Of a stretch of 64,000 nt of DNA, positions 4,287-46,104 are shown one piece after another. Source of the stretch: Anaerolineae bacterium (GTDB lineage Bacteria > Chloroflexota > Anaerolineae > Anaerolineales > UBA4823); assembly GCA_003130835.1 (NCBI GenBank), contig QEXX01000023.1, positions 1 to 64,000 on the forward strand, read 5' to 3'. The position numbers and the translations under genes are program-made. The notes under the pieces were generated by a model, which saw only the letters and a program-made list of their open reading frames with translations, was not told the origin of the DNA and did no database searches. The first letter of the stretch is position 1; the number at the start of each line of letters is the position of its first letter.

Positions 4287-5498
4287 ATGGCTGATCAAAT
4301 GGCAGATTCAATTCAAAAACGGATTGAGGCAATGAACCGCCGCGTTGAGAGCATCCGTCAACAAGATTTATATTTTTATAATCAACCCGTTGAGGAACTG
4401 CGAGGGGGCTCAAGAGTTCTCGTGAACGGGCGCGAGATGGGAATGTATGCCTCCTATTCCTATTTAGGCTTGGTGGGGCATCCTAAGATCAACCGCGCAG
4501 CACAGCAAGCTATCGAGAAATATGGCACTGGGACCCATGGGGTTCGAACGTTAGCCGGCACCCTAACCATCCATCGGGAATTGGAAGAGACGATTGCAGC
4601 TTTCAAACACGCTGAAGATGCCATTACTTACTCCTCTGGCTACGTGACCAATCTCACAGTGGTTTCAACTTTGGTCGGGCGGGGAGATTATGTTATCTCC
4701 GATAAACTCAACCATGCGAGCATTGTGGATGGTTGTCTGATGTCGGGGGCAAAATTTTTACGCTTCCAGCACAATGACATGGAAGCCCTGGAACATCGCC
4801 TGAAACAAGTTCCGGATGGGTGTGGAAAATTAGTCATCGCTGATGCTGTTTTTAGTATGGATGGAGATGTGATTGATTTTCCAAAAATGGTTGAACTGTG
4901 TAAGAAATATCGAGCATGGTTGATGATTGATGAGGCTCATTCGGTGGGTGTGCTGGGCGAACGAGGCACAGGGATTGAAGAGCACTTCGGAATGCCAAAT
5001 ACGATCGATATCAAAATGGGTACATTGAGCAAAACAATCCCATCGGTTGGGGGATATGTGGCTGGAAAGAAAGAAGTAATTTGCTATTTGCGCCATGCTA
5101 GCCGGGCTTATATCTTTTCGGCGGCTCTGCCGCCTGCCCAAGCGGCTGCCGCAAAAGCGGCTTTTGAAGTGATTCTTGAAGAACCATGGCGAGTCAAGAA
5201 ATTGCGGGAAAACGCAGCTTTGTTTATAAACGGACTTAAGCAGAGCGGTTTTGACACCATGCTGACCGAGACAGCCATTGTCCCAATCTTATGTGGTTCC
5301 GATGAAGCAGCTTTTGGCATGACACGCGCTGCCCAACGCAAGGGCCTTTTTGTTTTGCCTGTCGTTTCACCGGCAGTGCCGCCGGGCTTAGCTCGCTTGA
5401 GAGCAACCGTAACGGCTGCTCACGAAAAGGAAGAAATTGAGCAAGCGATAGAGCTATTAAGTGAGGTTGGTAAGGAAGTAGGGGTTTTATCTGGGTAG
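4287..5498 (+). CDS. PLP-dependent alpha-oxoamine synthase (AONS/KBL/SPT-like)
   Basis: Fold-type I PLP enzyme of the family that condenses an amino acid with an acyl-CoA (8-amino-7-oxononanoate synthase, glycine C-acetyltransferase, serine palmitoyltransferase). Seen: SYLGL near residue 60, GTHGVRTLAGT, the cofactor-contact DEAHSVGVLG (about 215-225) and the Schiff-base lysine in GTLSKTIPS (about 250). AAGGAG precedes ATG 4287. No other biotin gene is near, and the active-site loop is closer to SPT-like than to BioF or Kbl, so the substrate is left open. It lies 53 bases after ligA and 2 bases before the methyltransferase gene. Confidence 0.85.
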   Translation: MADQMADSIQKRIEAMNRRVESIRQQDLYFYNQPVEELRGGSRVLVNGREMGMYASYSYLGLVGHPKINRAAQQAIEKYGTGTHGVRTLAGTLTIHRELEETIAAFKHAEDAITYSSGYVTNLTVVSTLVGRGDYVISDKLNHASIVDGCLMSGAKFLRFQHNDMEALEHRLKQVPDGCGKLVIADAVFSMDGDVIDFPKMVELCKKYRAWLMIDEAHSVGVLGERGTGIEEHFGMPNTIDIKMGTLSKTIPSVGGYVAGKKEVICYLRHASRAYIFSAALPPAQAAAAKAAFEVILEEPWRVKKLRENAALFINGLKQSGFDTMLTETAIVPILCGSDEAAFGMTRAAQRKGLFVLPVVSPAVPPGLARLRATVTAAHEKEEIEQAIELLSEVGKEVGVLSG

Positions 5499-5500
5499 CT

Positions 5501-6691
5501 GTGGCGGCAAAAGCATACTTGAAGGTTGGTAAGGAAAAGTCTGTTCTCCGCTTTCATCCATGGATTTTTTCGAGTGCCATCGAGTGGATTGACGGGGATA
5601 TAGAACCTGGTGAAGCGATAGAAGTGTTTTCCCGCAATGGGGATTGGCTGGCGTGGGGATTGTACAGCCCGCAGTCACAGATTCGAATCCGCCTATGGAG
5701 TTGGCAGCGTAGCGAACCAATCGATCCAATCCTGTTACGGAATCGTATCCGACAAGCCATCGCTTGGAGAGATGCTTTGATGCGCTCTTCTGAGACGAAT
5801 TGCCTGCGCTTGATCTATGCAGAATCCGATCAACTGCCCGGACTGATTGTTGACTGGTACGATCCATACTTGGTGATTCAATTGCTTCACTGGGGTGTTG
5901 AACGCTATCAGGAGAAGATTCTTCACGCATTGTTGGAGATCACCGGTATTGAAAATATCTACGAGCGTTCGGATGGGGAGGGGAGAAAATTAGAAGGACT
6001 TGATGAAAGAAACGTCCTTAGGGTAGGACAAGAACCCCCTGCGACAATTGAAATCATGGAGCATGGGATTCGTTATCTGATCGATTTGCGGAAGGGGCAT
6101 AAGACGGGATTTTATTTAGATCAAAAGATGAATCGTTTACGGGTTCGGCAATACGCAAAGGATCGAGAGATCTTGGATTGCTTCTCTTACGTTGGGGGAA
6201 TGGCGCTCCCAGTCTTGATGGGGGGAGCCAAACATCTAACCTGCATTGATGAATCTGCTGAAGCCCTTGACCTTTTAGAGAGAAATCTTGCGCTTAATCA
6301 GATTCCGAGCGGAAAAGTTGAACTTCTATGTGGCGATGTATTCCAACAGCTTCGTCAATATCGAGATCGGGGTCAATTCTTTGACATGATTATCTTAGAT
6401 CCGCCCAAATTTGCCCCTACCGTAGCGCATGTTTCACGAGCCAGTCGAGGCTATAAGGATATCAATTTGTTGGCATTAAAACTACTCAGGCAGAATGGAA
6501 TTTTGGTCACTTTTTCTTGTTCGGGGGGAGTTAGCTTGGAACTATTTCAGAAAATTGTCTTTGGAGCTGCTATAGATGCAAGGCGAAAAGTCAAAATCTT
6601 GGAGTATTTACACCAGTCCCCAGATCATCCAATTGGGTTGCACTTCCCCGAAGGGGCTTACCTAGAAGGGTTGATTCTTGCTGTTGATTAG
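5501..6691 (+). CDS. RlmI-like 23S rRNA (cytosine-C5) methyltransferase
   Basis: Class I SAM-dependent RNA methyltransferase with an N-terminal PUA-like domain (about residues 1-75, starting AAKAYLKVGKEKSVLRFHPW), a central RlmI-type domain and a Rossmann methyltransferase domain. Seen: the RKGHKTGFYLDQ signature, ILDCFSYVGG as motif I, LDPPKFAP as the motif IV catalytic loop, and FSCSGGV with the cysteine expected for C5 methylation. The start is GTG 5501, two bases after the previous stop. It is the last gene of the + strand run and ends 8 bases from the 3' end of the tmRNA on the other strand. Confidence 0.9.
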   Translation: MAAKAYLKVGKEKSVLRFHPWIFSSAIEWIDGDIEPGEAIEVFSRNGDWLAWGLYSPQSQIRIRLWSWQRSEPIDPILLRNRIRQAIAWRDALMRSSETNCLRLIYAESDQLPGLIVDWYDPYLVIQLLHWGVERYQEKILHALLEITGIENIYERSDGEGRKLEGLDERNVLRVGQEPPATIEIMEHGIRYLIDLRKGHKTGFYLDQKMNRLRVRQYAKDREILDCFSYVGGMALPVLMGGAKHLTCIDESAEALDLLERNLALNQIPSGKVELLCGDVFQQLRQYRDRGQFFDMIILDPPKFAPTVAHVSRASRGYKDINLLALKLLRQNGILVTFSCSGGVSLELFQKIVFGAAIDARRKVKILEYLHQSPDHPIGLHFPEGAYLEGLILAVD

Positions 6692-6699
6692 CAAAAAAA

Positions 6700-7090
6700 T
6701 GGAGATGGCGGGAATCGAACCCGCGTCCGAAAGATTCGTCCCTCGAACATCTACGAGCGTAGTACCTTGTTTCTCTCGTCGGGCTACCCTCAAGGTACCC
6801 AGAGTAGACCGACCAGCAACTGAAGCCCGAAAGCTTCTCTTTCGCACATTTAGTTGCCTCCTGTGCGGCACTCCAGCTTTATTACGCCCACTCTACCTCC
6901 GGCTGGAGGACGGGGTAGGTGAACGTGGCCTCACTGCGGAGACCATCTGCTTTCCACTCGATTATGCAGCGAGCGGAATAGCAGCGTAGGGTGTGCGATT
7001 GGCACTTTTTGTTTGCGCTGATTTATCGAGTTCGGCGCCTCTCGGCTCGCAGTTCGGGGCCAGCCTCTCCCGTCGAAGCCTATCATCCCC
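6700..7090 (-). ncRNA. ssrA: tmRNA (SsrA), ribosome rescue RNA
   Basis: The ends form the tRNA-like domain: 5' GGGGATG (7090-7084) pairs with CATCTCC (6707-6701), followed by discriminator A at 6700. The T arm reads GCGGGTTCGATTCCCGC. The 5' side has the conserved GGCTTCGACGGG. The tag frame on the minus strand occupies 7018-6962 and encodes AQTKSANRTPYAAIPLAA, then TAA; it ends in the usual small hydrophobic degron. CCA is not encoded: the discriminator is followed by seven T, so CCA must be added after transcription. Length of about 390 nt is normal for one-piece tmRNA. Any protein frames here are spurious. Confidence 0.96.
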
Positions 7091-7102
7091 GATGACGTTT
7101 TG

Positions 7103-7131
7103 ATTATACTTCAAATTTGGGATTTTGTCAT
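7103..7131 (-). promoter_or_regulatory. Promoter of the tmRNA gene
   Basis: Reading on the minus strand, ATGACA (7131-7126) and TATAAT (7108-7103) are separated by exactly 17 bases, a near-consensus housekeeping sigma-70 promoter. The -10 box lies 12 bases before the mature 5' end at 7090, leaving a short leader for RNase P to remove. Confidence 0.8.
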
Positions 7132-7199
7132 GATATACTCTGCACATCCAATCAAGACCAACGGGGTTTTTCTGATTAAGAAACCCCGAGAACATACGG

Positions 7200-7784
7200 G
7201 TGTTTCAAGTGGAAGAAAAGAGTGAAGAGCAAATCTTAGCTTTAGCCGCTTCTGGAGACGAAGAAGCCTTTGCTTGGCTCTATCAAAAGTACATCAACCG
7301 CATTTATAACTACGTGTATTTTCGAACCGGCAGTGCCGCAGATGCGGAGGACTTGACTGCAAAAGTATTTATGCGGGCAATGAAACACATTCGAAATTAT
7401 CGGGACTTGGGTTTGCCGTTTTCTGCGTGGCTATATCGAATTGCGCACAATTTGGTAGCTAATTGGCATCGAGATAATGGTAGACGGAAAGAGATCCCTC
7501 TGGATGATGCCTTACCTTTACCTATTCTCGGTAAACATCCAGAAAGCGAGGTTGTTAGAAGGGAGGAAACAGAGAAGCTCTTGCGCATTCTCCGAAAATT
7601 GCCTCCGGAGCGACAACAGTTGATTATTCTTAAGTTTGTTGACCAGCTCTCCAATGCAGAAATAGGGGAAATCATGGGCAAAAGTGAAGGCGCCATAAAG
7701 AGTTTATATCATCGAACTTTGCTGTCTCTGCGCGAAGAATACGAACGGTATTTTGACGATGAACACAGTAAATTGACGAATTGA
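7200..7784 (+). CDS. ECF-type RNA polymerase sigma factor
   Basis: 194-residue group 4 (ECF) sigma factor. Region 2 is seen at about residues 25-90 (AFAWLYQKYINRIYNYVY, then DAEDLTAKVF and FSAWLYRIAHNLVANWHR). Region 4 is at about 125-180 (LPPERQQLIILKF, then the helix-turn-helix LSNAEIGEIMGKSEGAIKSL). The start is GTG 7200, with GTG 7209 as an alternative; neither has a good ribosome site. A small membrane protein follows 11 bases later and may act as its anti-sigma factor. A hairpin (CGGGGTTT/AAACCCCG) lies just upstream, ending about 11 bases before the start codon. Confidence 0.92.
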   Translation: MFQVEEKSEEQILALAASGDEEAFAWLYQKYINRIYNYVYFRTGSAADAEDLTAKVFMRAMKHIRNYRDLGLPFSAWLYRIAHNLVANWHRDNGRRKEIPLDDALPLPILGKHPESEVVRREETEKLLRILRKLPPERQQLIILKFVDQLSNAEIGEIMGKSEGAIKSLYHRTLLSLREEYERYFDDEHSKLTN

Positions 7785-7795
7785 TTTAGAAACCT

Positions 7796-8095
7796 ATGAA
7801 AAAGAGTGATGTTGTAATGAAACCTGAGAAAGCAGCACTTGAATCCTCGTTCGAGTCAGCATTACGATCTTATCTACAGCCGGTTGTTCCTAGGGATGAG
7901 TTTGTCAATCGCTTACGGGGAAAATTGGAAGAACAGGTTTTACCAATTCAGAAAAAAACAACGATTTCTTTCTACACATTATTGGAAGTTCTAATTCGAA
8001 CAGTGGCTATGCTCCTTCTTACTGTCCTAACGGTGCGAACAATGATGGTCATTATCTCAACCTGGAAAATTCTCCGTGCCTCCAGCGCTCGATAA
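7796..8095 (+). CDS. Small membrane protein downstream of ECF sigma; possible anti-sigma factor
   Basis: 99 residues of no recognised family. A soluble charged N-terminal part (about 1-58, with PRDEFVNRLRGKLEEQ) is followed by one hydrophobic segment (about 62-88) and a short basic tail. The layout of cytoplasmic helices then a single membrane span, placed directly behind an ECF sigma gene, is that of many anti-sigma factors. No ZAS zinc motif (HxxxCxxC) is visible, so the function is inferred from position only. The last 39 bases overlap the convergent gene below. Confidence 0.55.
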   Translation: MKKSDVVMKPEKAALESSFESALRSYLQPVVPRDEFVNRLRGKLEEQVLPIQKKTTISFYTLLEVLIRTVAMLLLTVLTVRTMMVIISTWKILRASSAR

Positions 8096-8425
8096 ATCCT
8101 GCTCATCGATCGGTAGCATTTCTTTCAGGTCAAGTGCATCTTGGATGAGATCGATGTGGTTTGGAAACGTGAAGTCCTCATTCACCTTTAGTAGAAAATG
8201 CGTCAGTAGCTCTTGTGCAGGGTGATTGGCGGCTAAATGGTTCTGAAGATAACGAAAATTTTGCATTGCATTGCGAAAAGGTTGAACACCCATCGAATGG
8301 AGGTAAGCTTGTACGATCACATTGGCGGCGCGACGCGCACATACTCTTGCCATTCCTTCGTTACCACGTTGGCGGGCACGTTTCGCAGTATCAATTTCTT
8401 GAGTAAAAGCTTTCGCCCAGTCCAT
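8057..8425 (-). CDS. Hypothetical alpha-helical protein
   Basis: 122 residues, not recognised. ATG 8425 is chosen because GGAGGACAAA directly precedes it; the frame stays open further upstream, but without a ribosome site. The sequence is helical and rich in Ala/Arg/Gln, with GNEGMARVCARRAANVIV near the N-terminus and an acidic Leu-rich C-terminal third. No catalytic motif, signal peptide or membrane segment is evident. Its 3' end overlaps the convergent membrane-protein gene by 39 bases. Confidence 0.55.
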   Translation of the reverse strand: MDWAKAFTQEIDTAKRARQRGNEGMARVCARRAANVIVQAYLHSMGVQPFRNAMQNFRYLQNHLAANHPAQELLTHFLLKVNEDFTFPNHIDLIQDALDLKEMLPIDEQDLSSAGGTENFPG

Positions 8426-8738: not shown

Positions 8739-9767
8739 CTATAACAGCGTTGATTTAGAGGATTTGTCCGAAGCAATCGATTCTTGCTTGAGTTGATCCC
8801 GAATATAAGCAAAGAATATCGATAGCGGCTTGTGGCGAGGGCAAACCTGTTCACACATTCCACAGCCAGCACACGACTCTGCCCATCTGACGATGCCTTC
8901 AATTAGATATTGACCGGAGTCCGAGCGCATTGGCAGTTCAATAGCACAGAGGGGACAAACCTGCATACACTTTTGACAGTCGCCGCATTCAATAAAAGAA
9001 TCGACCAGTTGTTCGATGCTCAGCGGCAAAACGTCAGCCATCCCTTGCCGGATACGTTCGCTCACGCGCTGATTGCGTTCGTTGATTTTAGCAACCGTTA
9101 TTTGATGTTGCTCAATGAGCTTTGAATCAGCTTCCCGAATCCTTAAGTTACTGTTGGCGAGCAAGTTTATATCCTGTCTTTCAGGGAACATTAGCAAGAT
9201 AGATTGACGGATAGGAAGTCCAATCACGCCGATATTCACCTTTGCACCTTCGCTGGCCGGGGATTCACAGACTTGACAAGCTGAACGAAAACGATAGGGT
9301 ACAATTCCGCCGTGTTTGGCGAATTGAAGGGCTTCTTGAGTCAATTGTTCAACCGATCCCTTGCGTTTCGTCCGCCAGATGTAGTCTTCATTCGGGTATG
9401 TTCCCAAACAGTCGAAACAAATGGTCAGTAAGCCGTTTGTCCTTAAGCCGTTGTTCCTTTCAAGCCCTTTTAGAGCGCGCAGTTCACACGGGCGTAGAAT
9501 TGCCCCGATGTTTGAAGGTTTCTGTTGCTCATGTAGAAGAGCAGGCACAAACCGTGCGGTGTTGGAGGTCATCAGAGGCTTGAATGGATTGAAGTCTTCA
9601 AGCTCATCGGGTGAATAGAGCAAATACGGCGCTTGTTTGAGCTCTGCAGAGCCATTGGTCGGGGTCAGTATGCATTCGAGTTGTCCGTTCCGCCAAATGG
9701 TCTTGAGGATTTGACGGATCGTCCCTAAAGGATCAGCATGGGTTTCAACCATTAACCAGTGAGACAT
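8739..9767 (-). CDS. FrhB/FdhB-like flavin and 2x[4Fe-4S] protein
   Basis: About 342 residues of the coenzyme F420 hydrogenase/dehydrogenase beta-subunit type. The first two thirds hold the FrhB/FdhB-like fold (RPCELRALKGLE, CFDCLGTYP, then CQVCESP). A C-terminal dicluster ferredoxin has CGDCQKCMQVCP and CAGCGMCEQVCP. ATG 9767 is chosen because GGAGGTGGA precedes it; an upstream in-frame ATG has none. Relatives pass electrons between NAD(P)H or F420, ferredoxin and hydrogenase or formate dehydrogenase. As last gene of the bc/HdrD-like cluster it is the likely cytoplasmic electron entry or exit module. No hydrogenase or formate dehydrogenase catalytic gene is adjacent. Confidence 0.8.
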   Translation of the reverse strand: MSHWLMVETHADPLGTIRQILKTIWRNGQLECILTPTNGSAELKQAPYLLYSPDELEDFNPFKPLMTSNTARFVPALLHEQQKPSNIGAILRPCELRALKGLERNNGLRTNGLLTICFDCLGTYPNEDYIWRTKRKGSVEQLTQEALQFAKHGGIVPYRFRSACQVCESPASEGAKVNIGVIGLPIRQSILLMFPERQDINLLANSNLRIREADSKLIEQHQITVAKINERNQRVSERIRQGMADVLPLSIEQLVDSFIECGDCQKCMQVCPLCAIELPMRSDSGQYLIEGIVRWAESCAGCGMCEQVCPRHKPLSIFFAYIRDQLKQESIASDKSSKSTLL

Positions 9768-9865
9768 GCTCCACCTCCAAACCGCCTTTTTTGGAATGTT
9801 GGGATGTTGTCTTTGTGATGCCAATCATGATGGATTACCGCTCCATTATCTAATAGCTACCAATC

Positions 9866-11791
9866 TTATAGTCTTTTAGCGATGATCTCAGCTATGTCCA
9901 TTACTTGAATGGACTCAAGCAGCCCTTTTGAGCGAATAGCATCATCAAACATATTTAGACAATAGGGACAAGCAGTGGCAACACAGTTTGCCTTTGCATC
10001 GAGCACTTCTTCCAGCCTGCGATGGTTGATGCGAGTTTCGGCGTCTGTTTCCAGCCACATTTGCCCACCGCCGCCGCCACAACAAAAGCTGTTTTCGTAG
10101 CGCCGTGCCAATTCAACGGTGTGGACTTGTGCGTTTTTCAATAACTGCCTCGGTTGAGTGTAAATATCGTTATAGCGGCCAAGATAGCAGGAGTCATGAT
10201 AAGCAACTTTCTCCAAGGCAGACTTTCCGTTTGCCGAAATTCTCTCCCAAGGGAGATCGAGTTCGGATAAGAATTCCGTGTAATGCTGAACACGGTAGTT
10301 GCCGCCAAACTGGGGATATTCGTTCTTGAGCGTATTGAAGCAATGAGGGCATTGGGTTACGATGCGATTAAATTTCACCTTGTTGAAGGTTTCGATGTTT
10401 TGCTGTGCAAACACTTGGAAAAGGTATTCATGCCCCATCCGACGCGCTGTTTCACCGCAGCAGGTTTCATCCATGCCTAAAGTGGCGAAGTCAACACCTG
10501 CTTTCTGCAGAATGTGTACGAACGATTGAGCTACTTTCTTGTTGCGGTCGTCATAGGCAAAGGCGCAGCCAAGGAAGAGTAAAACGTCGGTCTCTTCACC
10601 TGGGGCTAGTTCACGGATGTTCAGTCCGTCTGCCCAAACAACGCGGTCTTCGGCTGGCATTCCCCAGGGGTTGCCTTGGCGTTCAAGATTGCGCATGACC
10701 TCGCTGACCGACTTTTGGACGTTGCCGCTAGTCAAGACTTGATAACGGCGTAAATCAATGATTTCATCAATTGGGTTGACAAAGGTCGGGCATTTTTTCA
10801 AGCATGCCCCGCAAGTTGTACAGTACCACGGGAAATCCTCCGAAAGCACTTCGCCGAGTAACTCATGGGTGCCGTTGCCGTTTCCATAAATTAAGGTCTG
10901 AGTCATGTTTGATCTTAGGGTTTGAATCAAGGTTTTAGGAGAGTACGGCATACCACTGATCGTTGCCGGACAAGCTTCCTCGCAGCGCCCACAGCGAACG
11001 CAAGTTTCAAACATCAAAAGCTGGCTGGAAGAGAATTGATCAATGGTTCCAACGCCGAGAATTTCCGCTTCTTCGATGTTTTCGATTTTTGTCAACTCGC
11101 CAGCCTTTTTTCTAGGATGGAAGAATACATTGAGTGGCGCTAGAACTAGATGGCGCAATTTGGTAAAGGGTATGGTTGCAGCAAAAGTCAAACCCAAACC
11201 CACATGAACCCAGAAGAATGCGTCATGGAGGAGTGTTGCAGTGGCGGGAGTTACACCAATCGACATGAGGATTCTTGCCCATAGGTTGCCAAAAGGCGAC
11301 CAATTTGCCCATTCGACTGGGTTGGCAATGAGGCGAAATGCTTCGGTGGTGAAACCGGCTAGTGGAATGAGCGTAAGGATCACCAGGGCGTAGACATCGT
11401 CCCATTGGGTATCTAGGCTTTTGGGTTTCCAGATGAAGCGACGCAAGGCAGCCATGATCACGCCAAGCAAGATAAAGAGCCCAGCGAAATCCATGATAAG
11501 TTCGTACCATAGATAGGCTGTATTGCGTGGAAAAGTGGTCAATTCAAATGGGGTGAAGAGCTTCATTTGCATTAGGTTGATGGCTGTACCAATGACCTGA
11601 ATCGTTACACCCCAAAAGATTAAGGCATGCATAATGCCCACATAAGCCTTTTTGTAAATGCGCACCTGAGCAATGGCATCCACGAAAAGATCTCGGAAAT
11701 TGGAACGATGCTCTTTAAGCCAATTCCCAAACCTGATCAACCAATTTGAAGAGAGCGCCGAATTGGCGGATTTCATGGTTTCGGTTGTCAT
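9866..11791 (-). CDS. Membrane Fe-S oxidoreductase: NarI-like heme-b domain fused to HdrD-like domain (EMO/FadF type)
   Basis: 641 residues. Residues about 45-225 form a NarI/HdrE-like membrane domain with some five spans and candidate heme ligands in MHALIF, LLHDAFFWVH and KLRHL. Two [4Fe-4S] sites follow (C264/C267/C270/C274 and C324/C327/C330/C334). Two CCG domains follow, with C444-C445 (CCGETARRMG) and C570-C571 (CCGGGGGQMW). This is the design of DsrMK, HdrDE and the ETF:menaquinone oxidoreductase/FadF group, which exchange electrons between a cytoplasmic partner and menaquinone. The start ATG overlaps the Rieske stop in ATGA, showing translational coupling. No etfAB is nearby, so the FrhB-like protein is the probable partner. 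Confidence 0.85.
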   Translation of the reverse strand: MTTETMKSANSALSSNWLIRFGNWLKEHRSNFRDLFVDAIAQVRIYKKAYVGIMHALIFWGVTIQVIGTAINLMQMKLFTPFELTTFPRNTAYLWYELIMDFAGLFILLGVIMAALRRFIWKPKSLDTQWDDVYALVILTLIPLAGFTTEAFRLIANPVEWANWSPFGNLWARILMSIGVTPATATLLHDAFFWVHVGLGLTFAATIPFTKLRHLVLAPLNVFFHPRKKAGELTKIENIEEAEILGVGTIDQFSSSQLLMFETCVRCGRCEEACPATISGMPYSPKTLIQTLRSNMTQTLIYGNGNGTHELLGEVLSEDFPWYCTTCGACLKKCPTFVNPIDEIIDLRRYQVLTSGNVQKSVSEVMRNLERQGNPWGMPAEDRVVWADGLNIRELAPGEETDVLLFLGCAFAYDDRNKKVAQSFVHILQKAGVDFATLGMDETCCGETARRMGHEYLFQVFAQQNIETFNKVKFNRIVTQCPHCFNTLKNEYPQFGGNYRVQHYTEFLSELDLPWERISANGKSALEKVAYHDSCYLGRYNDIYTQPRQLLKNAQVHTVELARRYENSFCCGGGGGQMWLETDAETRINHRRLEEVLDAKANCVATACPYCLNMFDDAIRSKGLLESIQVMDIAEIIAKRL

Positions 11792-12228
11792 TGTTGGTTG
11801 CCTCCGATATAGATTTCACCATTAATCAAATTGATAGCGTAGGATTTAAGGGGAACATCCGTTGGGCCGTGAATGACGTGCCCGTCAATGGGGTCAAATG
11901 CAGCTTCATGACAAGGGCATACAAAGGCGGCTTTCTCTTTTTCCCATTTGACCAAGCAGGCGAAATGGGTGCAAACGGCTGAATAGGCTCGTAACCCTTG
12001 GGGCGTATTCACGACCAGAGCAGGATAGCGGCCAAAGTTGATCGCCTTACATTCGTTAAGCGGAATTTCGTCTGCTTTTCCTACCAAGACTGGTTCAGAT
12101 GGTTCCTCTTCAAGCTTAGGAGGATAAAAGTAGGCGACAATTGGAGCGGTCAGTGCGCCTAACCCGGTGATAGCTAGGAGGCGCTTAAGAAGTTTCACGA
12201 ATTCGCGGCGGGTGATATTCTTGTCCAT
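11788..12228 (-). CDS. qcrA: Rieske [2Fe-2S] subunit of cytochrome bc complex
   Basis: 146 residues. The N-terminus has a twin-Arg-like RREF followed by one membrane span (about 15-35), as in Tat-exported Rieske proteins. The cluster-binding boxes are CTHFACLV (about residue 86) and CPCHEAAF (about 104), close to the CTHLGC/CPCHGS consensus but with F-A in place of L-G and E-A in place of G-S. It lies in tight order after cytochrome b and subunit IV. It takes electrons from quinol at the Qo site on the outer face and passes them to a c-type heme. The altered box residues may change its potential. Confidence 0.93.
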   Translation of the reverse strand: MDKNITRREFVKLLKRLLAITGLGALTAPIVAYFYPPKLEEEPSEPVLVGKADEIPLNECKAINFGRYPALVVNTPQGLRAYSAVCTHFACLVKWEKEKAAFVCPCHEAAFDPIDGHVIHGPTDVPLKSYAINLINGEIYIGGNQQ

Positions 12229-12231
12229 GGT

Positions 12232-12633
12232 TTAGCTGACTCCTCCCCAAATGGTAAGTGCGATCAGAATAAGCATACCGATGGCAACCATAATGCCTCG
12301 GATTTTTACCAGTTTGCGATCGGTTTCTTTCTTACGGTCTAAAAAGGGCCAAATAGCCAGGAGAACTACTCCCACAATAGGTATTAAGACACCGGTTGTT
12401 TTCGGAACGAACTTCAAAAGTTGATATAGGCCGAGGAAGTACCATTCTGGCTTTACGTGGGCTGGGGTGTTGAACGGGTCGGCTGGTTCTTCTAATCCAA
12501 CGGGGTTTATCATCCCCAGGATACCGATGATGACCGCAATGCCCACGATTCCAATCACAACCCGAAATTCACGCATGAATTGATCAGGGAAGAAGGGGAT
12601 GGTTTCTTCTTTGTCAAGTTGTTCGTGGCTCAT
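12232..12633 (-). CDS. qcrC: Cytochrome b C-terminal subunit (subunit IV-like)
   Basis: 133 residues with three hydrophobic segments (about 25-45, 72-95 and 110-130), matching subunit IV of b6-type complexes rather than a single long cytochrome b. It carries the Qo-site PEWY motif in HVKPEWYFLGLYQLLK. It completes the split cytochrome b encoded just upstream. Start ATG 12633 has AAGGAGTA seven to eight bases before it. The symbol follows one Gram-positive convention, in which QcrC has an extra cytochrome c domain; that domain is absent here. Confidence 0.9.
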   Translation of the reverse strand: MSHEQLDKEETIPFFPDQFMREFRVVIGIVGIAVIIGILGMINPVGLEEPADPFNTPAHVKPEWYFLGLYQLLKFVPKTTGVLIPIVGVVLLAIWPFLDRKKETDRKLVKIRGIMVAIGMLILIALTIWGGVS

Positions 12634-12656
12634 AAGCTACTCCTTGGTAATCAAAA

Positions 12657-13715
12657 TTAGAGGGGTCGCATAACACCTTGACGTCGAACCATCAAGAAGT
12701 GAGCGAACATGAATGCAACTGTCAGGAGCGGGATAATGATGACGTGCAAACCGTAAAAGCGACTCAATGTTTCACCGGTGACATTCCAGCCAACGCGCAG
12801 AAAGACCAAGGCAAGATTGCCAATGATCGGAACGGCACCGGCGATTTCTGAACCAACGGTGGTTGCCCAAAAAGCTCGTTGATCCCATGGGAGCAAGTAG
12901 CCGGTAAAACCAAATGCCAAGGTCAGGATCAAAAGGAGCACGCCGCTGACCCAATTCATCTCGCGAGGATTCTTGTAAGCACCCATGATAAACACGCGCA
13001 GCATGTGGGCGGTACACATAACGATCATGCCATTGGCTGCCCAGTGATGGATGGCACGAATGGCTGCTCCAAACCGCACTTGGGTCTCGATAAATTGAAT
13101 GCTGGCATAAGCCGCTTCTGGTGTGGGTTTGTAGTAAAAGGCTAGCATGATGCCAGTTACGCCCTGAACGACAAAGAGAAAGGCGGTGATTCCCCCCAAA
13201 CAATAAAACCAGCGGAGAGCGTATTTTGGAACCGGCTTCTTGAGGACTTTGGTAAGCGGTTCGGAGATTTCGTATCTCTCATCAACCCATTCAACGGTGC
13301 GGTTGGTGAGTGGCTTCCAAGTTTTCCGGTTGAGGATCACGCTTCCGGTACGGTACATACCAAAAGCGAAGATCATGCCCATTGTGCCGAAAATTGCCCA
13401 GCGTGCTAATGGAGTCCAGAGGTTTTTATTCTCGCCGGTGATGTGGCAATGAAGGCAGGGATCTTGCTTGGGCGGCGGTAAAGTCGCTGAAAGCGAACGC
13501 TGGGGCTGCATACTGTTTTGAAGGATTGTCCCAATTCTGGTTAGGGAAGGAGCATCAGCGGCGCTTGAGGCAGCATATTGATTTTCGGGTGGACTTTGAT
13601 TGGCGAGGACATGGATGGTCAATGAAGCCAATAGGATGGTTGCTAGGATGATACTCAAGAAGAGAACTTTTTGTAACGATCTGCGGATGGGCACTTGATC
13701 AGAATGTTTTCTCAT
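12657..13715 (-). CDS. qcrB: Cytochrome b (b6-type) with N-terminal heme-c extension
   Basis: 352 residues. The C-terminal core (about 165-352) is b6-like: four spans with heme-b histidine pairs in AIHHWAANGMIVMCTAH (spacing 14) and LHVIIIPLLTVAFMFAH (spacing 15, the b6 value). The first ~125 residues are extra: a membrane span (about 16-38), a polar stretch with heme-c motif CLHCH (C87, C90, H91), and a second span (about 100-124). This topology would put heme c on the outer face and return the chain to the cytoplasm where cytochrome b6 starts. No separate cytochrome c1 or f gene is in the cluster, so this heme may replace it. First gene of the cluster. Confidence 0.88.
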   Translation of the reverse strand: MRKHSDQVPIRRSLQKVLFLSIILATILLASLTIHVLANQSPPENQYAASSAADAPSLTRIGTILQNSMQPQRSLSATLPPPKQDPCLHCHITGENKNLWTPLARWAIFGTMGMIFAFGMYRTGSVILNRKTWKPLTNRTVEWVDERYEISEPLTKVLKKPVPKYALRWFYCLGGITAFLFVVQGVTGIMLAFYYKPTPEAAYASIQFIETQVRFGAAIRAIHHWAANGMIVMCTAHMLRVFIMGAYKNPREMNWVSGVLLLILTLAFGFTGYLLPWDQRAFWATTVGSEIAGAVPIIGNLALVFLRVGWNVTGETLSRFYGLHVIIIPLLTVAFMFAHFLMVRRQGVMRPL

Positions 13716-13894: not shown

Positions 13895-14542
13895 TTAAAT
13901 ATCGATGATTTTCTTTTGAATAGCGTACTTTATCAATTCCCCTCGGTCATGTAGGTCTAACTTCTTCATTAGGTTTAAGCGATGGGCTTGTACGGTTTTA
14001 ATCGAAATAGAGAGAATGTCAGCGATTTGTTTATTGGTGTAACCTTCGGCGATTAACTGCAAAATTTGTCGTTCGCGGTCGGTTAAGCCATCTGTCGAAT
14101 CTTGCGCCGATAAATCTCCCCAACGTAGATAATCTGTAACTATTAGTCGGGTAATGGCCGGCGACAACACAACTTCCCCTTTGTGTACCGATCGAATTGC
14201 ACTCAGGAGCTCCCGCGCGGCTGCATCTTTTAGGATATACCCCATAGCTCCAGCAGCCAAAACTTGGCGGATATATTCTTCGTTTTCGTGCATCGTTAAG
14301 ATCAGAATCTTTGCCCTTGGTTGATTTTTGCGAATTTGGCGCGTTGCCTCAAGCCCGTTAAGCAAGGGCATGGCAAGATCGATTAAAATGACGTCAGGCC
14401 TCAGCGAATCGGCGAGTTTAACGGCTGTAATGCCATCTTCGGCTTCGCCGATGACCTCCATATCGGGCTCATCCTCGATCAGCGAGCGAATTCCATCCCT
14501 GAGGATTGTGTGATCATCAGCAAGCAATATGCGGATTTTCAT
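13895..14542 (-). CDS. NarL/LuxR-family response regulator
   Basis: 215 residues. The receiver domain (about 1-120) begins IRILLADDHTILRDGIRSL, with the phospho-Asp in VILIDLAMP and Lys in GYILKDAA. A LuxR-type helix-turn-helix follows (about 148-210: LTDRERQILQLIAEG, NKQIADILSISIKTVQAHR). The ATG directly abuts the TAG of the kinase gene, so translation is coupled. It is the last gene before the bc respiratory cluster on the same strand, which makes that cluster a plausible target. Confidence 0.95.
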   Translation of the reverse strand: MKIRILLADDHTILRDGIRSLIEDEPDMEVIGEAEDGITAVKLADSLRPDVILIDLAMPLLNGLEATRQIRKNQPRAKILILTMHENEEYIRQVLAAGAMGYILKDAAARELLSAIRSVHKGEVVLSPAITRLIVTDYLRWGDLSAQDSTDGLTDRERQILQLIAEGYTNKQIADILSISIKTVQAHRLNLMKKLDLHDRGELIKYAIQKKIIDI

Positions 14543-15577
14543 CTAACGAACCATCTGCAACATGTGGGATGGCACAAAAACGGTTATCCTTGTGCCGTTC
14601 TGTGCCGATGAGTGGATACGCAAGATGGCTTGAATCGACTCGGCGCGTTCTTTCATGCCAAGTAACCCCCATTTGCCGTCGGTGAGAGCTTGTTGTTGAT
14701 ACTCGTTGCTTTCAAAACCAATACCATTATCTTCAATGACCAAAGAAATACCGTTTAACTCTTGTTTTAGGGAAATGTTTGCCTGCGTTGCTTGGGAATG
14801 TCTCACAATATTATTGATGGCTTCTTGAGAGATGCGAAATAGACAAGTGCTAACCCAGTCGGGAAGCGGTAGAGAATCCTGCGGAGCATCGAGGGTGAAA
14901 CGAATCCCGGCGCCTTCCAATCGACTGCGACCATACCAGCGGATCGCAGGGATCAGCCCCAAATCATCTAAGATGGATGGACGGAGATCAAGGATGATTT
15001 TACGTAGTTCCTGGAGAGTGTTTGCTGCCAAAGTGCGGCAGAAAGATAGTTTTTCTCTAAGGTCAGGGGCTTGATCGGACAGTTTGTTTTCTATTCTTTC
15101 CAAATTGAACACCAGAGTAGACAGAGCTTGACCGGTATCATCGTGTAAGGATTGAGCAATCCGTTTGCGTTCTTCCTCCTGCGCACAAATAGCTTGTTGG
15201 GAGAGAGCTTGTAATTCCAAATTGCGTTGTTGAATTTGATTGACTAACAACTTTAGGACAGATGCCAATTCCGCAATGTCCGGATCCGAAGCTTCAAAGT
15301 CTACCTCAGCGGTGTCTGGGTTGGTTTGCAGTTTACTGACTAAATTTTTTAGATCATACAGTGGTTTGAGGGCAGTGCGTAAGATCAGTGCGTTTATGGT
15401 GACACTTAACACAGTGCCAACCGATGAGAACAGGAAAATCAACAGCGGATCGGCTGCTCGGTAGGTTAGATTTCGGGTGATTAAGGTTCCAGCGATAGCG
15501 CCAAAGATAATAATGATCGAATTGCCGATAATAATTTTTTGCGAAATCGAAAGTGAGAGAAACCTTTCTAGCTTCAT
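14543..15577 (-). CDS. NarX/DegS-type sensor histidine kinase
   Basis: 344 residues. Two membrane segments near the N-terminus (about 13-30 and 45-68) have almost no extracytoplasmic loop. A HAMP-like linker and coiled coil follow (about 70-135). The HisKA_3 dimerisation domain has the phospho-His in SLHDDTGQALSTLV (about residue 143). A HATPase domain has N-box ISQEAINNIVRHS and G-box EDNGIGF. The lack of an external loop suggests it senses something in or near the membrane or cytoplasm. It is paired with the NarL-type regulator that directly follows. Confidence 0.93.
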   Translation of the reverse strand: MKLERFLSLSISQKIIIGNSIIIIFGAIAGTLITRNLTYRAADPLLIFLFSSVGTVLSVTINALILRTALKPLYDLKNLVSKLQTNPDTAEVDFEASDPDIAELASVLKLLVNQIQQRNLELQALSQQAICAQEEERKRIAQSLHDDTGQALSTLVFNLERIENKLSDQAPDLREKLSFCRTLAANTLQELRKIILDLRPSILDDLGLIPAIRWYGRSRLEGAGIRFTLDAPQDSLPLPDWVSTCLFRISQEAINNIVRHSQATQANISLKQELNGISLVIEDNGIGFESNEYQQQALTDGKWGLLGMKERAESIQAILRIHSSAQNGTRITVFVPSHMLQMVR

Positions 15578-36391: not shown

Positions 36392-38407
36392 ATGGCTAAA
36401 GAAAAGCGATCTCATGAAGAGCGAACGGTAGATCCCGCCGCTCAAGAGATGCTCTATCGAGCGGATGAACTTGGGTTGAGCACAGCGTTCACGCGAGTCG
36501 ATGAGTTGGTTCCCTGTAATATTGGTAGTGCGGGAATGTGTTGTAAACTGTGTGGCATGGGTCCGTGCCGCCTAACGAAAGATGGCATGACTGGCATTTG
36601 TGGGGCAACGATTGATACCATTCAAGCTCGCAACTTCATCCGAGCCATCGCCGCAGGGGCAGCAGCGCACTCCGATCATGGGCGAGATATGGCTTTTACT
36701 CTTAAGGCAGTTGCCAATCACCAAGCGGAAGGATATTCCATAAAGGATGTTGCAAAGCTGCGCATGGTGGCTTCCTATTACGATATCCCAGTCGAGGGGC
36801 GATCTCCGGAGGAGATTGCCAATGATCTTGCCGATCTTTACATTGCCCAATTTGGCCAACAAAAAGGTGAGGTTGCCCCAACCCGTCGGGCGCCGGCGAA
36901 ACGTCAAGCCTTATGGCGTGAGTTAGGAGTTATGCCACGCGGTATTGATCGGGAAGTTGTCGAAGCGCTCCATCGTACCCACATTGGTGATGATCAAGAT
37001 CCAATCCACATTCTTCAACATGCTGTGCGCACTGCTCTATCCGATGGTTGGGGCGGTAGCATGATTGCCACCGATATTTCGGATATTCTTTTTGGAACGC
37101 CTGCGCCAATTTTAGGTCAAGCGAATTTGGGCGTCCTAAAAGAAGATATGGTTAATGTCGTGGTGCACGGACATGAACCTACGCTTTCCCAGATGGTGGT
37201 AGCAGCCTCGCAAGATCCCGAAATTATTGAATACGCTCGGGCAGCCGGGGCGAAAGGGGTCAATCTCTCAGGAATTTGTTGTACAGCAAATGAAATCTTA
37301 ATGCGTCAGGGCATTCCCGCCGCTGGCAACTTTCTCCATCAAGAGCTGGCAATTTTGACCGGCGCAGTGGAGGCGATGGTAGTAGATGTCCAATGCATCA
37401 TGCAGGCTCTGACCGATTTAGCCGCTAATTTCCATACCAAGATCATCACCACCTCGCCGAAGGTGCGCATAAAGGGGGCATTACATATCGAGTTCGATGA
37501 ACATAAAGCATTAACGATTGCGAAAGAGATTCTGCGCACAGCGATTGATAATTATAAGAATCGGGGTGAAACCCATATTCCGAAAGTCAAAGAAAATCTT
37601 GTGCCCGGATTTTCGCATGAATATATCAACTACATGTTGGGTGGCTCGTATCGGGCATCGTTCCGACCCCTGAATGATGCGATTATGGCAGGTAGAATTC
37701 GTGGGGTGGCAGCCATTGTCGGTTGTAATAACCCGCGCAGTAAGCAAGATTATCTGCATACGTATGTGACCCAAGAGCTTCTTAAACAAGATGTGCTTAT
37801 CGTTGAGACAGGCTGTGGTGCCATTGCAAGTGCGAAATTGGGGTTATTGCTTGGCGAGGCTGGCCTCACCAAAGTCGGTCCTGGCTTACGCGAAGTGTGC
37901 GAAGCGATTGGTATTCCGCCTGTTTTGCATATGGGCTCCTGTGTGGATAACACCCGCATTCTGACGGTCTTGACCCAAATGGTGCAAGAAGGCGGGTTGG
38001 GTGACGACATCGATCAAATACCAGCCGTTGGCTTGGCGCCCGAATGGATGAGCGAGAAAGCGCTCTCGATCGGAGTATATTGCATGGCTTCGGGAGCGTA
38101 TGTCATCTTTGGTGGATCGTCGCCCATTAGTGGCATGCCCGATCGAGTGGCCGATTCCGACTTAATTTTGCGCTATATCAGTGAAGGGTGGGAGAAATTG
38201 TACGGTGGAAAGATGGAATTTGTTGCGGATCCGGATGAAATGATCCGACGTACCCTTGATCATATCGACAAAAAGCGGGCTGCTCTTGGATTGCCCGAGT
38301 ACGATCCGAAACGCTTTGGTAAAAGCGGTGATCGACGGGTGCTTGAACTAGAAAGCCTGCCGTTGTCAGAAAGAATTCAGGCTCTATATGGCGTAGCTGC
38401 AGATTAG
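36392..38407 (+). CDS. acsA: Carbon monoxide dehydrogenase catalytic subunit (Ni-Fe-S)
   Basis: 671 residues, bacterial CooS/AcsA type. It interconverts CO2 and CO at the NiFe4S4 C cluster and feeds CO to acetyl-CoA synthase. N-terminal cluster Cys lie in VPCNIGSAGMCCKLCGMGPC and GICGAT (B and D clusters). C-cluster ligands lie in NLSGICCTANE, VDVQCIMQ, VGCNNPRSKQD, ETGCGAIAS, HMGSCVDNTR and YCMASGAYV. Length fits the family (about 630-675). It starts one base after the HMA-like gene and is followed 11 bases later by acsB. Maturation by the CooC-like proteins at 17-19 kb is likely. Confidence 0.97.
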   Translation: MAKEKRSHEERTVDPAAQEMLYRADELGLSTAFTRVDELVPCNIGSAGMCCKLCGMGPCRLTKDGMTGICGATIDTIQARNFIRAIAAGAAAHSDHGRDMAFTLKAVANHQAEGYSIKDVAKLRMVASYYDIPVEGRSPEEIANDLADLYIAQFGQQKGEVAPTRRAPAKRQALWRELGVMPRGIDREVVEALHRTHIGDDQDPIHILQHAVRTALSDGWGGSMIATDISDILFGTPAPILGQANLGVLKEDMVNVVVHGHEPTLSQMVVAASQDPEIIEYARAAGAKGVNLSGICCTANEILMRQGIPAAGNFLHQELAILTGAVEAMVVDVQCIMQALTDLAANFHTKIITTSPKVRIKGALHIEFDEHKALTIAKEILRTAIDNYKNRGETHIPKVKENLVPGFSHEYINYMLGGSYRASFRPLNDAIMAGRIRGVAAIVGCNNPRSKQDYLHTYVTQELLKQDVLIVETGCGAIASAKLGLLLGEAGLTKVGPGLREVCEAIGIPPVLHMGSCVDNTRILTVLTQMVQEGGLGDDIDQIPAVGLAPEWMSEKALSIGVYCMASGAYVIFGGSSPISGMPDRVADSDLILRYISEGWEKLYGGKMEFVADPDEMIRRTLDHIDKKRAALGLPEYDPKRFGKSGDRRVLELESLPLSERIQALYGVAAD

Positions 38408-38418
38408 GAGGTCCGTAA

Positions 38419-40701
38419 ATGTCTAGGTACATTGCAAAACGTGCCATCCGCGGTGCAAATGCACTTGTCCGCGAAGCGGAATTAATGCTCAATCGAGCGC
38501 TAAAGGAAAAGGGAGAGGATCAAAAGGTTGCTTTTCCGAACACTGCCTACTACTTGCCGCTCATATATGGCATGACGGGAATTGCAGTGGAGAAACTGGA
38601 AGATTTAGTGCCTGTGATCGAGCAGGCAAAGCGATTGCTTCATCCGATGCCATCCGACAACTTGTGGACACCGTACCTCGGGGAGACCTTGGATAGTGGG
38701 ATGGCAACCTTACTAGCTGCAGAAGCGATTGAGGCAATCCGCTTTGTTTATGGCCTCCAACCAGAACGAATGCCGGGCTTTACCCTTGCGGGTGGGACAT
38801 CGTATCCTGAGTTAGATGCGCCGAACAATGGGCGGGTTGGTCATCTAAATGGCCCTATCGATGACATCCAACTTCGTTCTTGGGGCATCCAATTGGTGGA
38901 TGGACGGATGCCAGGTTTTGCTGCTATTGTTGGCGCAGCCAAATCCAATGAGGTGGCTGTAAAGATCGTCCGCGAACTGCAAAAGCGCAATATCCTATGT
39001 TTCCTTTCAGGGAATGTCAATGGGCGCAGTATCATCCATCAGCTTATCGAAGAGGGTGTAGAACTTGGTTACGATACCTATACTGTACCTTTTGGCACCG
39101 ATACGATCAGCGCCATCTATGCGCTAGGGTTTGCCACCCGCTCAGCCTTGACTTTTGGTGGTCTAAAACCGGGACAAGCGCGAGAAATCTTGTTATATAA
39201 CCGCGAGCGTGTTTTTGCCTTCGTTTTGGCTTTAGGTGAGGTAGATGATCTAAAATATGCGGCTGCAGCAGGAGCGATCAATTTTGGTTTTCCGGTGATC
39301 GCTGATACGGTCATCCCCGAAATCCTACCCACCGGCATCACCAAGTATGAACACGTCGTGAGTATGCCCTTCAATGAAATTGAAGGCGCAGATGACCTAG
39401 AAAAGGCAGAGCGCTTGGTTCAGAAATGCATCGAGGTGCGCGGCGTAAAAGTTAAGGTTGCTGAAGTGCCGGTGCCGGTTCCGTATGGGTCTGCCTTTGA
39501 AGGGGAAGTCGTGCGCAAGAACGACATGCGGGTTGAGTTTGGTGGCAAGCACTCGCGCTGTTTTGAATACCTCTTTATGGCACCGCTCGATGAAGTTGTG
39601 GATGGAAAAGTTGAAGTTATCGGCCCATCCTTTGAAAATGTCGAACCCCAGGGACATATGGATATGGGGATCATTGTCCAGGTGGCTGGGCGACAGATGC
39701 AAGAGGATTTTGAGCCTGTCTTAGAGCGTCAAATTCACTATTTCATCAATGGCGCTTCAGGAATTCAACACATCGGTCAACGCGACATTGCTTGGATTCG
39801 TATTTCCAATAATGCGGCAGAAAAAGGGTTCAAGTTAGAACATTTTGGGAAAATCCTCCATGCTCGGTATCACTCGGATTTTGGTGCAATTGTTGACAAA
39901 GTCCAAGTCACCATCATCACAGAACCTGAGTTGCTACAGCAATGGTTAGCAAAAGCTCGGGCAGCCTACGATTATCGCAACAAACGCTTGGCTGACTTAA
40001 CGGATGACAAGGTCGATGAGTTCTACTCTTGTACATTGTGTCAATCCTTTGCACCGAATCATGTTTGTATCATTAGCCCGGAACGACTAGGTCTATGCGG
40101 TGCCTATAATTGGCTGGACTGCAAAGCTTCCTATAACATCAATCCAACTGGCCCGAACCAACCGATCAAGCTGGGCAAGGTCATTGACCCCGTGAAAGGG
40201 TATTGGACTGGAACAAACGAATATGCCAAAATCGGCTCACATGGCGTTGTCTCGGAGGTTTCCATGTATTCCATCATGGAAAACCCCATGACCGCCTGTG
40301 GTTGCTTTGAATGTATTGTCATGTTGATCCCTGAAGCCAATGGCGTGATGGTGGTTAGCCGTGAAGACCCGAGCATGACTCCGGCTGGTATGACATTCAG
40401 CACGCTCGCTGGTATTGCAGGAGGCGGTTTACAAACCCCAGGGGTGATGGGGGTAGGAAAATATTTCTTGCTAAGCCCGAAGTTCATCTCAGCCGATGGG
40501 GGATTTAAGCGAGTCGTATGGATGAGCAGTATCTTGAAAGAAATGATGGCTGAAGAATTAAAAGCCGTCGCCGAGCGAGAAGGCGATCCGGACTTAATTG
40601 AAAAAATTGCCGATGAACGGCACGTGACGACGGTGGAAGAATTACTGGCTTGGCTTGAGGAGCACAACCATCCGGTATTAGCGATGGAGCCGATGTTCTA
40701 A
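38419..40701 (+). CDS. acsB: Acetyl-CoA synthase (CO-methylating), bacterial full-length type
   Basis: 760 residues. Makes acetyl-CoA from CO, a corrinoid-bound methyl and CoA. The full N-terminal CODH-binding domain is present (MSRYIAKRAIRGANALV onward), unlike the shorter archaeal CdhC. The A-cluster [4Fe-4S] Cys are in SCTLCQSFAPNHVC and LGLCGAYNWLDC (about 535-575). The CGC motif that binds distal nickel is in TACGCFECI (about 630). AGGAGG precedes the ATG. A hairpin follows the stop before acsD. Confidence 0.97.
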   Translation: MSRYIAKRAIRGANALVREAELMLNRALKEKGEDQKVAFPNTAYYLPLIYGMTGIAVEKLEDLVPVIEQAKRLLHPMPSDNLWTPYLGETLDSGMATLLAAEAIEAIRFVYGLQPERMPGFTLAGGTSYPELDAPNNGRVGHLNGPIDDIQLRSWGIQLVDGRMPGFAAIVGAAKSNEVAVKIVRELQKRNILCFLSGNVNGRSIIHQLIEEGVELGYDTYTVPFGTDTISAIYALGFATRSALTFGGLKPGQAREILLYNRERVFAFVLALGEVDDLKYAAAAGAINFGFPVIADTVIPEILPTGITKYEHVVSMPFNEIEGADDLEKAERLVQKCIEVRGVKVKVAEVPVPVPYGSAFEGEVVRKNDMRVEFGGKHSRCFEYLFMAPLDEVVDGKVEVIGPSFENVEPQGHMDMGIIVQVAGRQMQEDFEPVLERQIHYFINGASGIQHIGQRDIAWIRISNNAAEKGFKLEHFGKILHARYHSDFGAIVDKVQVTIITEPELLQQWLAKARAAYDYRNKRLADLTDDKVDEFYSCTLCQSFAPNHVCIISPERLGLCGAYNWLDCKASYNINPTGPNQPIKLGKVIDPVKGYWTGTNEYAKIGSHGVVSEVSMYSIMENPMTACGCFECIVMLIPEANGVMVVSREDPSMTPAGMTFSTLAGIAGGGLQTPGVMGVGKYFLLSPKFISADGGFKRVVWMSSILKEMMAEELKAVAEREGDPDLIEKIADERHVTTVEELLAWLEEHNHPVLAMEPMF

Positions 40702-40707
40702 GATTTT

Positions 40708-40750
40708 AAGGGGAAGGAAACGAGAATGTATTCTTGTTTGCCTTCCCTTT
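40708..40750 (+). terminator. Intra-operon hairpin between acsB and acsD
   Basis: Imperfect stem of about 18 pairs: AAGGGGAAGGAAACGAGAAT (40708-40727) against ATTCTTGTTTGCCTTCCCTTT (40730-40750), with one bulge, followed by a mixed T-rich TATTTCG. It could be a partial terminator or an mRNA-stabilising 3' end that sets a higher level of CODH/ACS than of the downstream proteins. Confidence 0.5.
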
Positions 40751-40809
40751 TATTTCGCGCCTTTATTAAGCGCATTCTGCATGCCTAATCATCCGAAGGA
40801 GAGAAAAAT

Positions 40810-41787
40810 ATGCCTGTTGAAGTACCTAAAGAGAAATGGCCAGGATCTGTGCGCACAATTACGTTAGGCGCGCTGCCATCAGAAGGAGGCACGCGCAAAC
40901 GAGTTGTGACCGTGGGTGGGGAAACAGCGATGCCTTTTATGCACTTTGAAGGCGAAATTCCCAATCCACCGGTGGTCGCAATTGAGATTAAAGATCGGAA
41001 ACCGGACGATTGGTCGCCTTTGCTGCTGGAGACGTGGAAAGACGTGATTGATGATCCGGCTCAATGGGCAGCCGCTGCAGAAGCTGCCGGGGCTGATCTG
41101 ATTGTATTAGCTTTGAGCTTGACCAATCGCAATGGCGAACCAACCAGTCCAGATGAGGCTGTAGCAAGCGTGAAAGCGGTCTTGAGAGCCACAGGGCTTC
41201 CGCTAATCGTTTTTGGCCCAGGGCAAGCGGAGGCTGACAATGCCTTGCTTGTAGCGGTGTCTGAAGCTACAAAGGGGGAACGCTTGGCGTTGGGGATCTG
41301 TGAAGATAAAAACTACCGCACCATCGTTGCAACAGCAATGGCAAACGATCATCTTGTTACCGCCAGAACGCCCATGGATGTTAATTTGGCGAAGCAACTC
41401 AACATCCTCATCAGCGACATGGGATTACCATTAGATCGTATCCTGATGGACCCAACCACCGGAGCGTTAGGTTATGGAATTGAGTATGGCTTCTCGGTCA
41501 TGGAACGTTTGCGCCTGGCTGCTTTACAAGGGGATAAAATGACGCAACTCCCGATGATTGTGACACCCGGTTTTGAAGCCTGGAAGGCAAAAGAATCCAA
41601 GGTTGGCGAAGGTGTGCCGGCTTCTTGGGGGGATTGGTTGAACCGGGCCATAAATTGGGAGACCTTGACGGCGCTGACGCTGGTCGAGTCGGGGGCAGAT
41701 ATCGTAGTCTTACGACACCCTGAAAGCGTCAAGCGGGTTAAAGCTGCCATCGAAGAATTGATGGCTGCGAAGTCGCTTGTCTCATAA
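40810..41787 (+). CDS. acsD: Corrinoid/iron-sulfur protein small (delta) subunit
   Basis: 325-residue TIM-barrel subunit of the CFeSP, which carries the methyl group from AcsE to AcsB. Family blocks seen: TLGALPSEGGTRKRVVTVGGE (split by Thr/Gly runs), AMPFMHFEG, DPAQWAAAAEAAGADLIVL, CEDKNYRTIVATAMA, DRILMDPTTGALGYGIEYGFSVMER-like block and SWGDWLNRAINWE. Start ATG 40810 follows GGAGAG at the usual distance. It pairs with AcsC, whose gene starts 26 bases after this stop. Confidence 0.95.
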   Translation: MPVEVPKEKWPGSVRTITLGALPSEGGTRKRVVTVGGETAMPFMHFEGEIPNPPVVAIEIKDRKPDDWSPLLLETWKDVIDDPAQWAAAAEAAGADLIVLALSLTNRNGEPTSPDEAVASVKAVLRATGLPLIVFGPGQAEADNALLVAVSEATKGERLALGICEDKNYRTIVATAMANDHLVTARTPMDVNLAKQLNILISDMGLPLDRILMDPTTGALGYGIEYGFSVMERLRLAALQGDKMTQLPMIVTPGFEAWKAKESKVGEGVPASWGDWLNRAINWETLTALTLVESGADIVVLRHPESVKRVKAAIEELMAAKSLVS

Positions 41788-41813
41788 TTTGCTTCCAATG
41801 ATTGGAGGTCCTT

Positions 41814-43142: not shown

Positions 43143-43175
43143 TTTCCTTGTCGGTAACTTTTCTTTGTAGTCTTT

Positions 43176-45128: not shown

Positions 45129-45142
45129 AGGGAGGGTTTCCC

Positions 45143-46066: not shown

Positions 46067-46104
46067 CCTCTTTGAGAAAGACGAGGATAGTTTAGGAGGT
46101 AGTT

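Follow-up and report, generated by a model that had tools for sequence, protein, structure and literature searches.

Introduction

The mycobacterial membrane protein EtfD (PDB 9ojn; EMO/FadF/DgcB family) is a precedent for a wire that leads from the cytoplasm to menaquinone (PMC13083937). In EtfD, Thr539 forces a linear 3Fe-4S cluster at cluster D1, and His583 caps the second cluster, D2, making it non-catalytic (PMC13083937). In methanogens, electrons from F420H2 are carried to HdrA by ElpB, a subunit of the Elp-Hdr complex (8rvu) (PMC12350162). Here, we describe an operon of five genes, A to E, carried by a family of Chloroflexota most of whose members are uncultured. The operon is real, conserved, and built from known modules, and it is apparently undescribed. 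The first-pass annotation of the locus knew of no complex with such a composition, and none was found in the open-access literature searched.

The products of A, B, and C resemble cytochrome b6f and other Rieske-cytochrome b complexes in the split between b6 and subunit IV, the four histidines of the b hemes, the PEWY motif, the cysteine of heme cn, and the Rieske ligands. Unlike b6f and bc complexes, the operon has no separate cytochrome f or c1, cytochrome b carries the outer heme c as an N-terminal fusion, and A-C are obligately linked to D. Like EtfD, D has a NarI-type domain, one heme b, two 4Fe-4S clusters, and two CCG domains. However, it has Cys445 instead of Thr539 at cluster D1 and is encoded with a bc complex, not with ETF. 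D shares two complete CX34CCX35-36CXXC motifs with the heterodisulfide reductases HdrDE/HdrB, but differs in its fused membrane cytochrome domain and its His483 cap. Furthermore, we know of no CoM/CoB system in the operon bearers. E has the fold, the PC and CxxC motifs, and the C-terminal dicluster of ElpB and of FdhB from the Fdh-Hdr-Fmd complex (7bkb). However, E adjoins D, and the operon encodes neither FdhA/ElpA nor MvhD as its partner.

Two other systems are also similar. A matches ExtP, the cytochrome b of the Geobacter ExtP/ExtQ selenite/tellurite operon, with 259.5 bits, under the curated cut-off of 290. The description of the ExtP family does not mention an HdrD/FdhB-type module. In DsrMKJOP, NarI-type and CCG-type modules join menaquinone to cytoplasmic chemistry, as is predicted for D. 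However, DsrMKJOP has no Rieske protein, D scores 55.9 bits against DsrK (cut-off 400), and no DsrC-like carrier is encoded in the genome from which the operon was taken. For the last two reasons, DsrC-linked sulfur chemistry was rejected for D.

Organization of the Operon

The window, i.e., the whole stretch of 64,000 nucleotides that was analyzed, contains the five genes tightly packed on the minus strand (13715-8739) in the order A-B-C-D-E, as the first-pass annotation had described (Table 1). Domains were assigned with Pfam and NCBIfam. The junctions measure 23 (A-B), 3 (B-C), -4 (C-D), and 41 bases (D-E). The start of E is probably the ATG at 9767 (MSHWLM...) rather than the TTG at 9824, because orthologues align from there, and the D-E junction then measures 98 bases. 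The LuxR-type response regulator probably controls the operon. Roughly half of the loci have a sensor kinase and a same-strand homologue of this regulator upstream of A, and most of these loci are from the family to which the window belongs.

Table 1. Features of the operon and its upstream regulators in the window.
Feature	Coordinates	Strand	Description and basis
A	12657..13715	-	Cytochrome b (b6 type) preceded by an N-terminal TM helix and an outer mono-heme c segment (CxxCH); PF00033, 175 bits
B	12232..12633	-	Subunit IV (petD-like), PEWY Qo motif; PF00032, 59.5 bits
C	11788..12228	-	Rieske 2Fe-2S protein; PF00355
D	9866..11791	-	Membrane domain of the NarI type (one heme) joined to two 4Fe-4S and two CCG domains; PF02665, PF02754 x2
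E	8739..9767	-	FdhB/ElpB-type flavoprotein (predicted), C-terminal 2x[4Fe-4S]; longest ORF from TTG 9824
ATGA overlap, C stop / D start	11788..11791	-	Translational coupling
CxxCH heme-c motif of A (C87-C90-H91)	13443..13457	-	Orthologue conservation
Cys172 of A	13200..13202	-	Aligns with Cys35 of cytochrome b6 (binds heme cn, inner side)
Cys445 of D	10457..10459	-	Extra Hdr-type cysteine, first CCG motif
LuxR-type response regulator	13895..14542	-	Pfam; directly upstream of A
Sensor histidine kinase	14543..15577	-	Pfam; partner of the response regulator

Conservation of A-D

At E <= 1e-70, 56 of 400 Anaerolineales genomes yielded an orthologue of A, although the weakest of these matches may be paralogues, as is the case with locus L180. 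Among the 43 loci read, 35 had room for the four genes, and 33 of these carry A-B-C-D in order on one strand. The two exceptions are L180, a paralogous bc locus, and L153 (G533), where the stretch expected to hold D (5062-8196) is masked and reads partly as N. The A-D order is thus kept in 33/33 assessable loci, which come from Anaerolineales and one genome of another order. In the latter genome (G335), succinate dehydrogenase/fumarate reductase-like genes directly follow the operon (L072 4155-7470).

The overlap of four bases (ATGA) between C and D, recognized in the window by the first-pass annotation, recurs in nearly all loci in which both starts are resolved. The large C-D values of L147 and L161 belong to a second EMO gene, and by coordinates the operon copies at these loci overlap by 4. 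The gene maps were made with a simple ORF picker, which sometimes missed B or C, and these were recovered by tblastn. An origin by chance or as an assembly artefact was rejected, since the operon is conserved in dozens of independent genomes, in some of them within one contig. The first-pass annotation had considered that its idea of a joint complex would fail if the cluster split freely in relatives, and such splitting was not seen.

The bc Part Encoded by A, B, and C

A begins with a transmembrane helix, which is followed by the short outer CxxCH segment, a second helix, and the b6-type cytochrome b. Its best PDB match is cytochrome b6 of the chloroplast b6f complex (2.5e-63). The b-heme histidines H223, H237, H324, and H339 and the CxxCH motif show at least 97% conservation across 45 orthologues, and CxxCH is invariant in the 25 aligned rows. 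Cys172 is likewise invariant among the aligned orthologues of A. No separate cytochrome c1 or f subunit is encoded in the operon. Instead, the CxxCH sits in the N-terminal extension that precedes the cytochrome b domain of A. With a mean pLDDT of 59.6, the structure model of this protein was too poor to use, and the extra domain was positioned by a topology argument.

In the Rieske protein C, the ligand and disulfide residues C86, H88, C91, C104, C106, and H107 are kept. The closest PDB entry is 8hn2. The box II Ser and Tyr of Rieske proteins raise the redox potential, and the motif table showed that neither residue of the high-potential proteins is kept in C. C is thus predicted to have a low potential, which fits menaquinol.

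The genome of the window also encodes two more Rieske/cytochrome b complexes, on contigs C66 (L031 128-3091) and C124 (L032 7875-11932). One of them has subunit IV fused to a two-CxxCH cytochrome, and one has two diheme cytochromes c. Neither is adjoined by a D-type gene. The heme cn cysteine was seen in neither: the b6-type cytochrome b of C66 lacks it (FTLG), and the divergent cytochrome b of C124 showed no counterpart.

The Membrane Protein D

The best solved match of D is EtfD (9ojn_A, 1.5e-105). A tree of 81 D-like proteins places the 34 operon copies in a single clade with a long stem (SH-aLRT 100, stem 0.94), within which branching largely follows families and taxonomy. The ordinary EtfD/EMO-type protein of the same genome (contig C125) falls in a separate group.

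The heme b ligands H55 and H196 and all 4Fe-4S cysteines are conserved in the 34 operon copies. The two complete CCG motifs comprise C409/444/445/481/484 and C535/570/571/608/611, with C484 present in 31/34. Position 445, which corresponds to Thr539 of EtfD, is Cys in all 34 operon copies and Thr in 8/8 members of the clade of the genome's own EMO-type protein. Elsewhere among the relatives of D, it is mostly Asn, Thr, Ser, or Ala. The Thr that gives EtfD its linear 3Fe-4S D1 site is thus found in none of the 34 operon copies. Nor does D have the uncapped, catalytic second cluster of HdrD, since H483, the EtfD-type His cap, is kept in 34/34. With C445 and H483, D thus combines a first site of the Hdr type with a second site of the EtfD type.

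The Flavoprotein E

In a single-sequence scan, E matches FrhB_FdhB_C with 18.2 bits, under the Pfam cut-off of 23.3. A 27-row profile of E matches FdhB (7bkb_E) over nearly the whole length (6.1e-20). The AlphaFold model of E has a mean pLDDT of 82, and its top Foldseek matches are ElpB (8rvu_E, 5.5e-13) and FdhB (7bkb_E, 3.3e-12). Profile and predicted fold agree that E is closest to the FdhB/ElpB type. The FrhB-like donor module of the first-pass annotation can thus be refined to this type. In the gene maps of the loci, E is not accompanied by a catalytic subunit of its own (FdhA, FrhA, or ElpA). The genome of the window carries cofE for F420 biosynthesis, which shows only that F420 could be made.

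E follows D in 26/32 loci. However, a profile search found no E in the whole genomes G367, G610, G544, G523, G560, and G412. G524 is likewise without E, but its D runs off the contig end. The core of the unit is therefore A-D, and E is an accessory that cannot be the sole electron source. E was rejected as an obligate part on the same grounds, and the single five-gene unit proposed by the first-pass annotation holds for its first four genes, whereas the fifth is frequent but dispensable. Outside the window's own genome, the 400 genomes sampled from the phylum contained no more than distant relatives of E.

In family f63 (L169, L170, L171, L176, and L178), E has lost one cysteine of the first C-terminal cluster motif. 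A distant paralogue of E (25%) is encoded on contig C15 of the window's genome (L037 664-1770), beside MvhD and a 1521-aa HdrA-type protein, an arrangement that fits docking of E-type proteins on Hdr.

Proposed Electron Route

Together, these features suggest that A-E is a dedicated electron route connecting the cell interior with the outer face of the membrane. In the best explanation, which as a whole has about an even chance of being right, the unit is vertically inherited and dedicated to membrane electron transfer; electrons would enter via E/D and reduce menaquinone, and the bc part would pass them to the outer heme c. D would serve as an EtfD/HdrD-type wire: by homology to EtfD, its clusters D1-D4 would transfer cytoplasmic electrons to the one b heme and then to menaquinone. 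Where E is present, it may be the cytoplasmic flavin entry, which accepts hydride from F420H2 or NAD(P)H. Alternatively, E may receive electrons from an HdrA-type partner and then give them to D. Electrons may also enter directly at D. ETF could be the donor of D, given the likeness of D to the ETF-linked EtfD.

A-B-C would act as a b6f-like complex with heme cn and a low-potential Rieske protein and would oxidize menaquinol by a Q cycle that translocates protons. The place of cytochrome f/c1 would be taken by the heme c of A. The operon encodes no soluble cytochrome c or other acceptor for the electrons of the heme c of A. This heme may hand electrons to an outer cytochrome and aa3 oxidase, genes for which are present in the window's genome, or to another acceptor. 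The fixed translational coupling between C and D suggests coordinated synthesis of D and the Rieske protein, and also that D belongs physically to the bc complex or docks on it. From this near-invariant coupling, we infer contact between D and the bc part.

A more extended assembly can also be envisaged, in which E docks on HdrA like FdhB and ElpB, and soluble HdrABC(-MvhADG) is thereby united with E, D, and the bc complex at the membrane. This proposal is highly doubtful. If it holds, Hdr-type flavin bifurcation would have a direct connection to menaquinone and an outer c heme, which would bridge flavin-based and quinone-based bifurcation.

Alternative Explanations

The bc complex and D may be merely co-transcribed. 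D would then be a specialized EtfD/EMO protein fed by ETF from beta-oxidation, and the menaquinone pool would link the two enzymes. EtfD is the best solved match of D, its His cap is kept as H483, etfAB is present in the window's genome, and ordinary menaquinone coupling needs no contact between the two. However, the etfAB genes lie on contig C47, with no EMO/CCG protein in the 18 kb read there, and D stands beside etfAB in none of the loci read. The pairing of D with etfAB elsewhere in the genome, which the first-pass annotation had named as an argument against a joint complex, was thus not found. The same genome encodes another EMO-type protein, which carries the Thr of EtfD, C445 is specific to the operon D, and the C-D overlap is near-constant over the whole order. 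We consider this explanation somewhat unlikely. D as the ETF partner of its own genome is likewise not favored, because the other EMO-type gene exists and D forms a separate clade.

Another explanation is that D reoxidizes a dithiol, or HdrABC itself, supplied by the HdrABC-MvhADG hydrogenase. The high-potential branch of bacterial Hdr bifurcation would thereby be closed through menaquinone and the bc complex. In four loci read, hdrCBA-mvhDGA and a hydrogenase protease gene directly precede A. The places of A and MvhG indicate the same adjacency in G423, G444, G458, and G535, which brings the total to eight genomes. In the window's genome, hdrC-hdrB-hdrA-mvhD-mvhG lie on another contig (C42, L035 2313-7198) and are cut by the contig end. 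Both CCG motifs of D are of the complete Hdr type, and E resembles the Hdr-bound subunit ElpB. However, the eight genomes belong to one family, and the adjacency may be one event. MvhG occurs in 38/46 operon bearers and 23/34 non-bearers, a difference that is not significant (p 0.18) in a test that ignores shared ancestry, and the hydrogenase was rejected as a general partner of the operon. H483 corresponds to the cap that makes cluster D2 non-catalytic, and the absence of a DsrC-like carrier from the genome also argues against a dithiol. Taken jointly, the dithiol reaction and the closure of the branch are distinctly improbable.

The first-pass annotation suggested uphill reduction for the Wood-Ljungdahl pathway. 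In this reading, menaquinol and the proton-motive force would drive electrons via D/E to a low-potential cytoplasmic acceptor. The window contig also holds an acetyl-CoA synthase/CODH cluster (acsA, B, D, C, V, and E) and a hyp hydrogenase-maturation cluster (36392-47592 and 52650-58161). AcsB is found in 41/46 bearers and 16/34 non-bearers (p 5e-5), although this test ignores shared ancestry. The comparison takes no account of phylogeny or genome completeness. The non-bearers are a convenience sample, and for 17 of them (family f2) the absence of the operon was read from their D matches instead of a direct result for A. Even though heme cn on the inner Qi side could exchange electrons with a cytoplasmic module, the uphill explanation is very improbable, since AcsB is missing from some bearers, the aa3 oxidase and the outer heme c point to downhill oxidation, and D and the bc part would run against a large potential gap; the energetics instead favor flow from the cytoplasm via menaquinone to the c heme.

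Significance

Since the operon, the residues, and the contrast proteins are all defined, the preferred proposal, a route from E/D through menaquinone to the outer heme c, is concrete and testable. If D is a true bc subunit, cytoplasmic electrons would have an entry point within the bc complex itself. A single assembly could then lead electrons from a carrier in the cytoplasm to an outer cytochrome. Such a complex would also be a candidate for closing HdrABC reactions on their high-potential side in bacteria without CoM and CoB.
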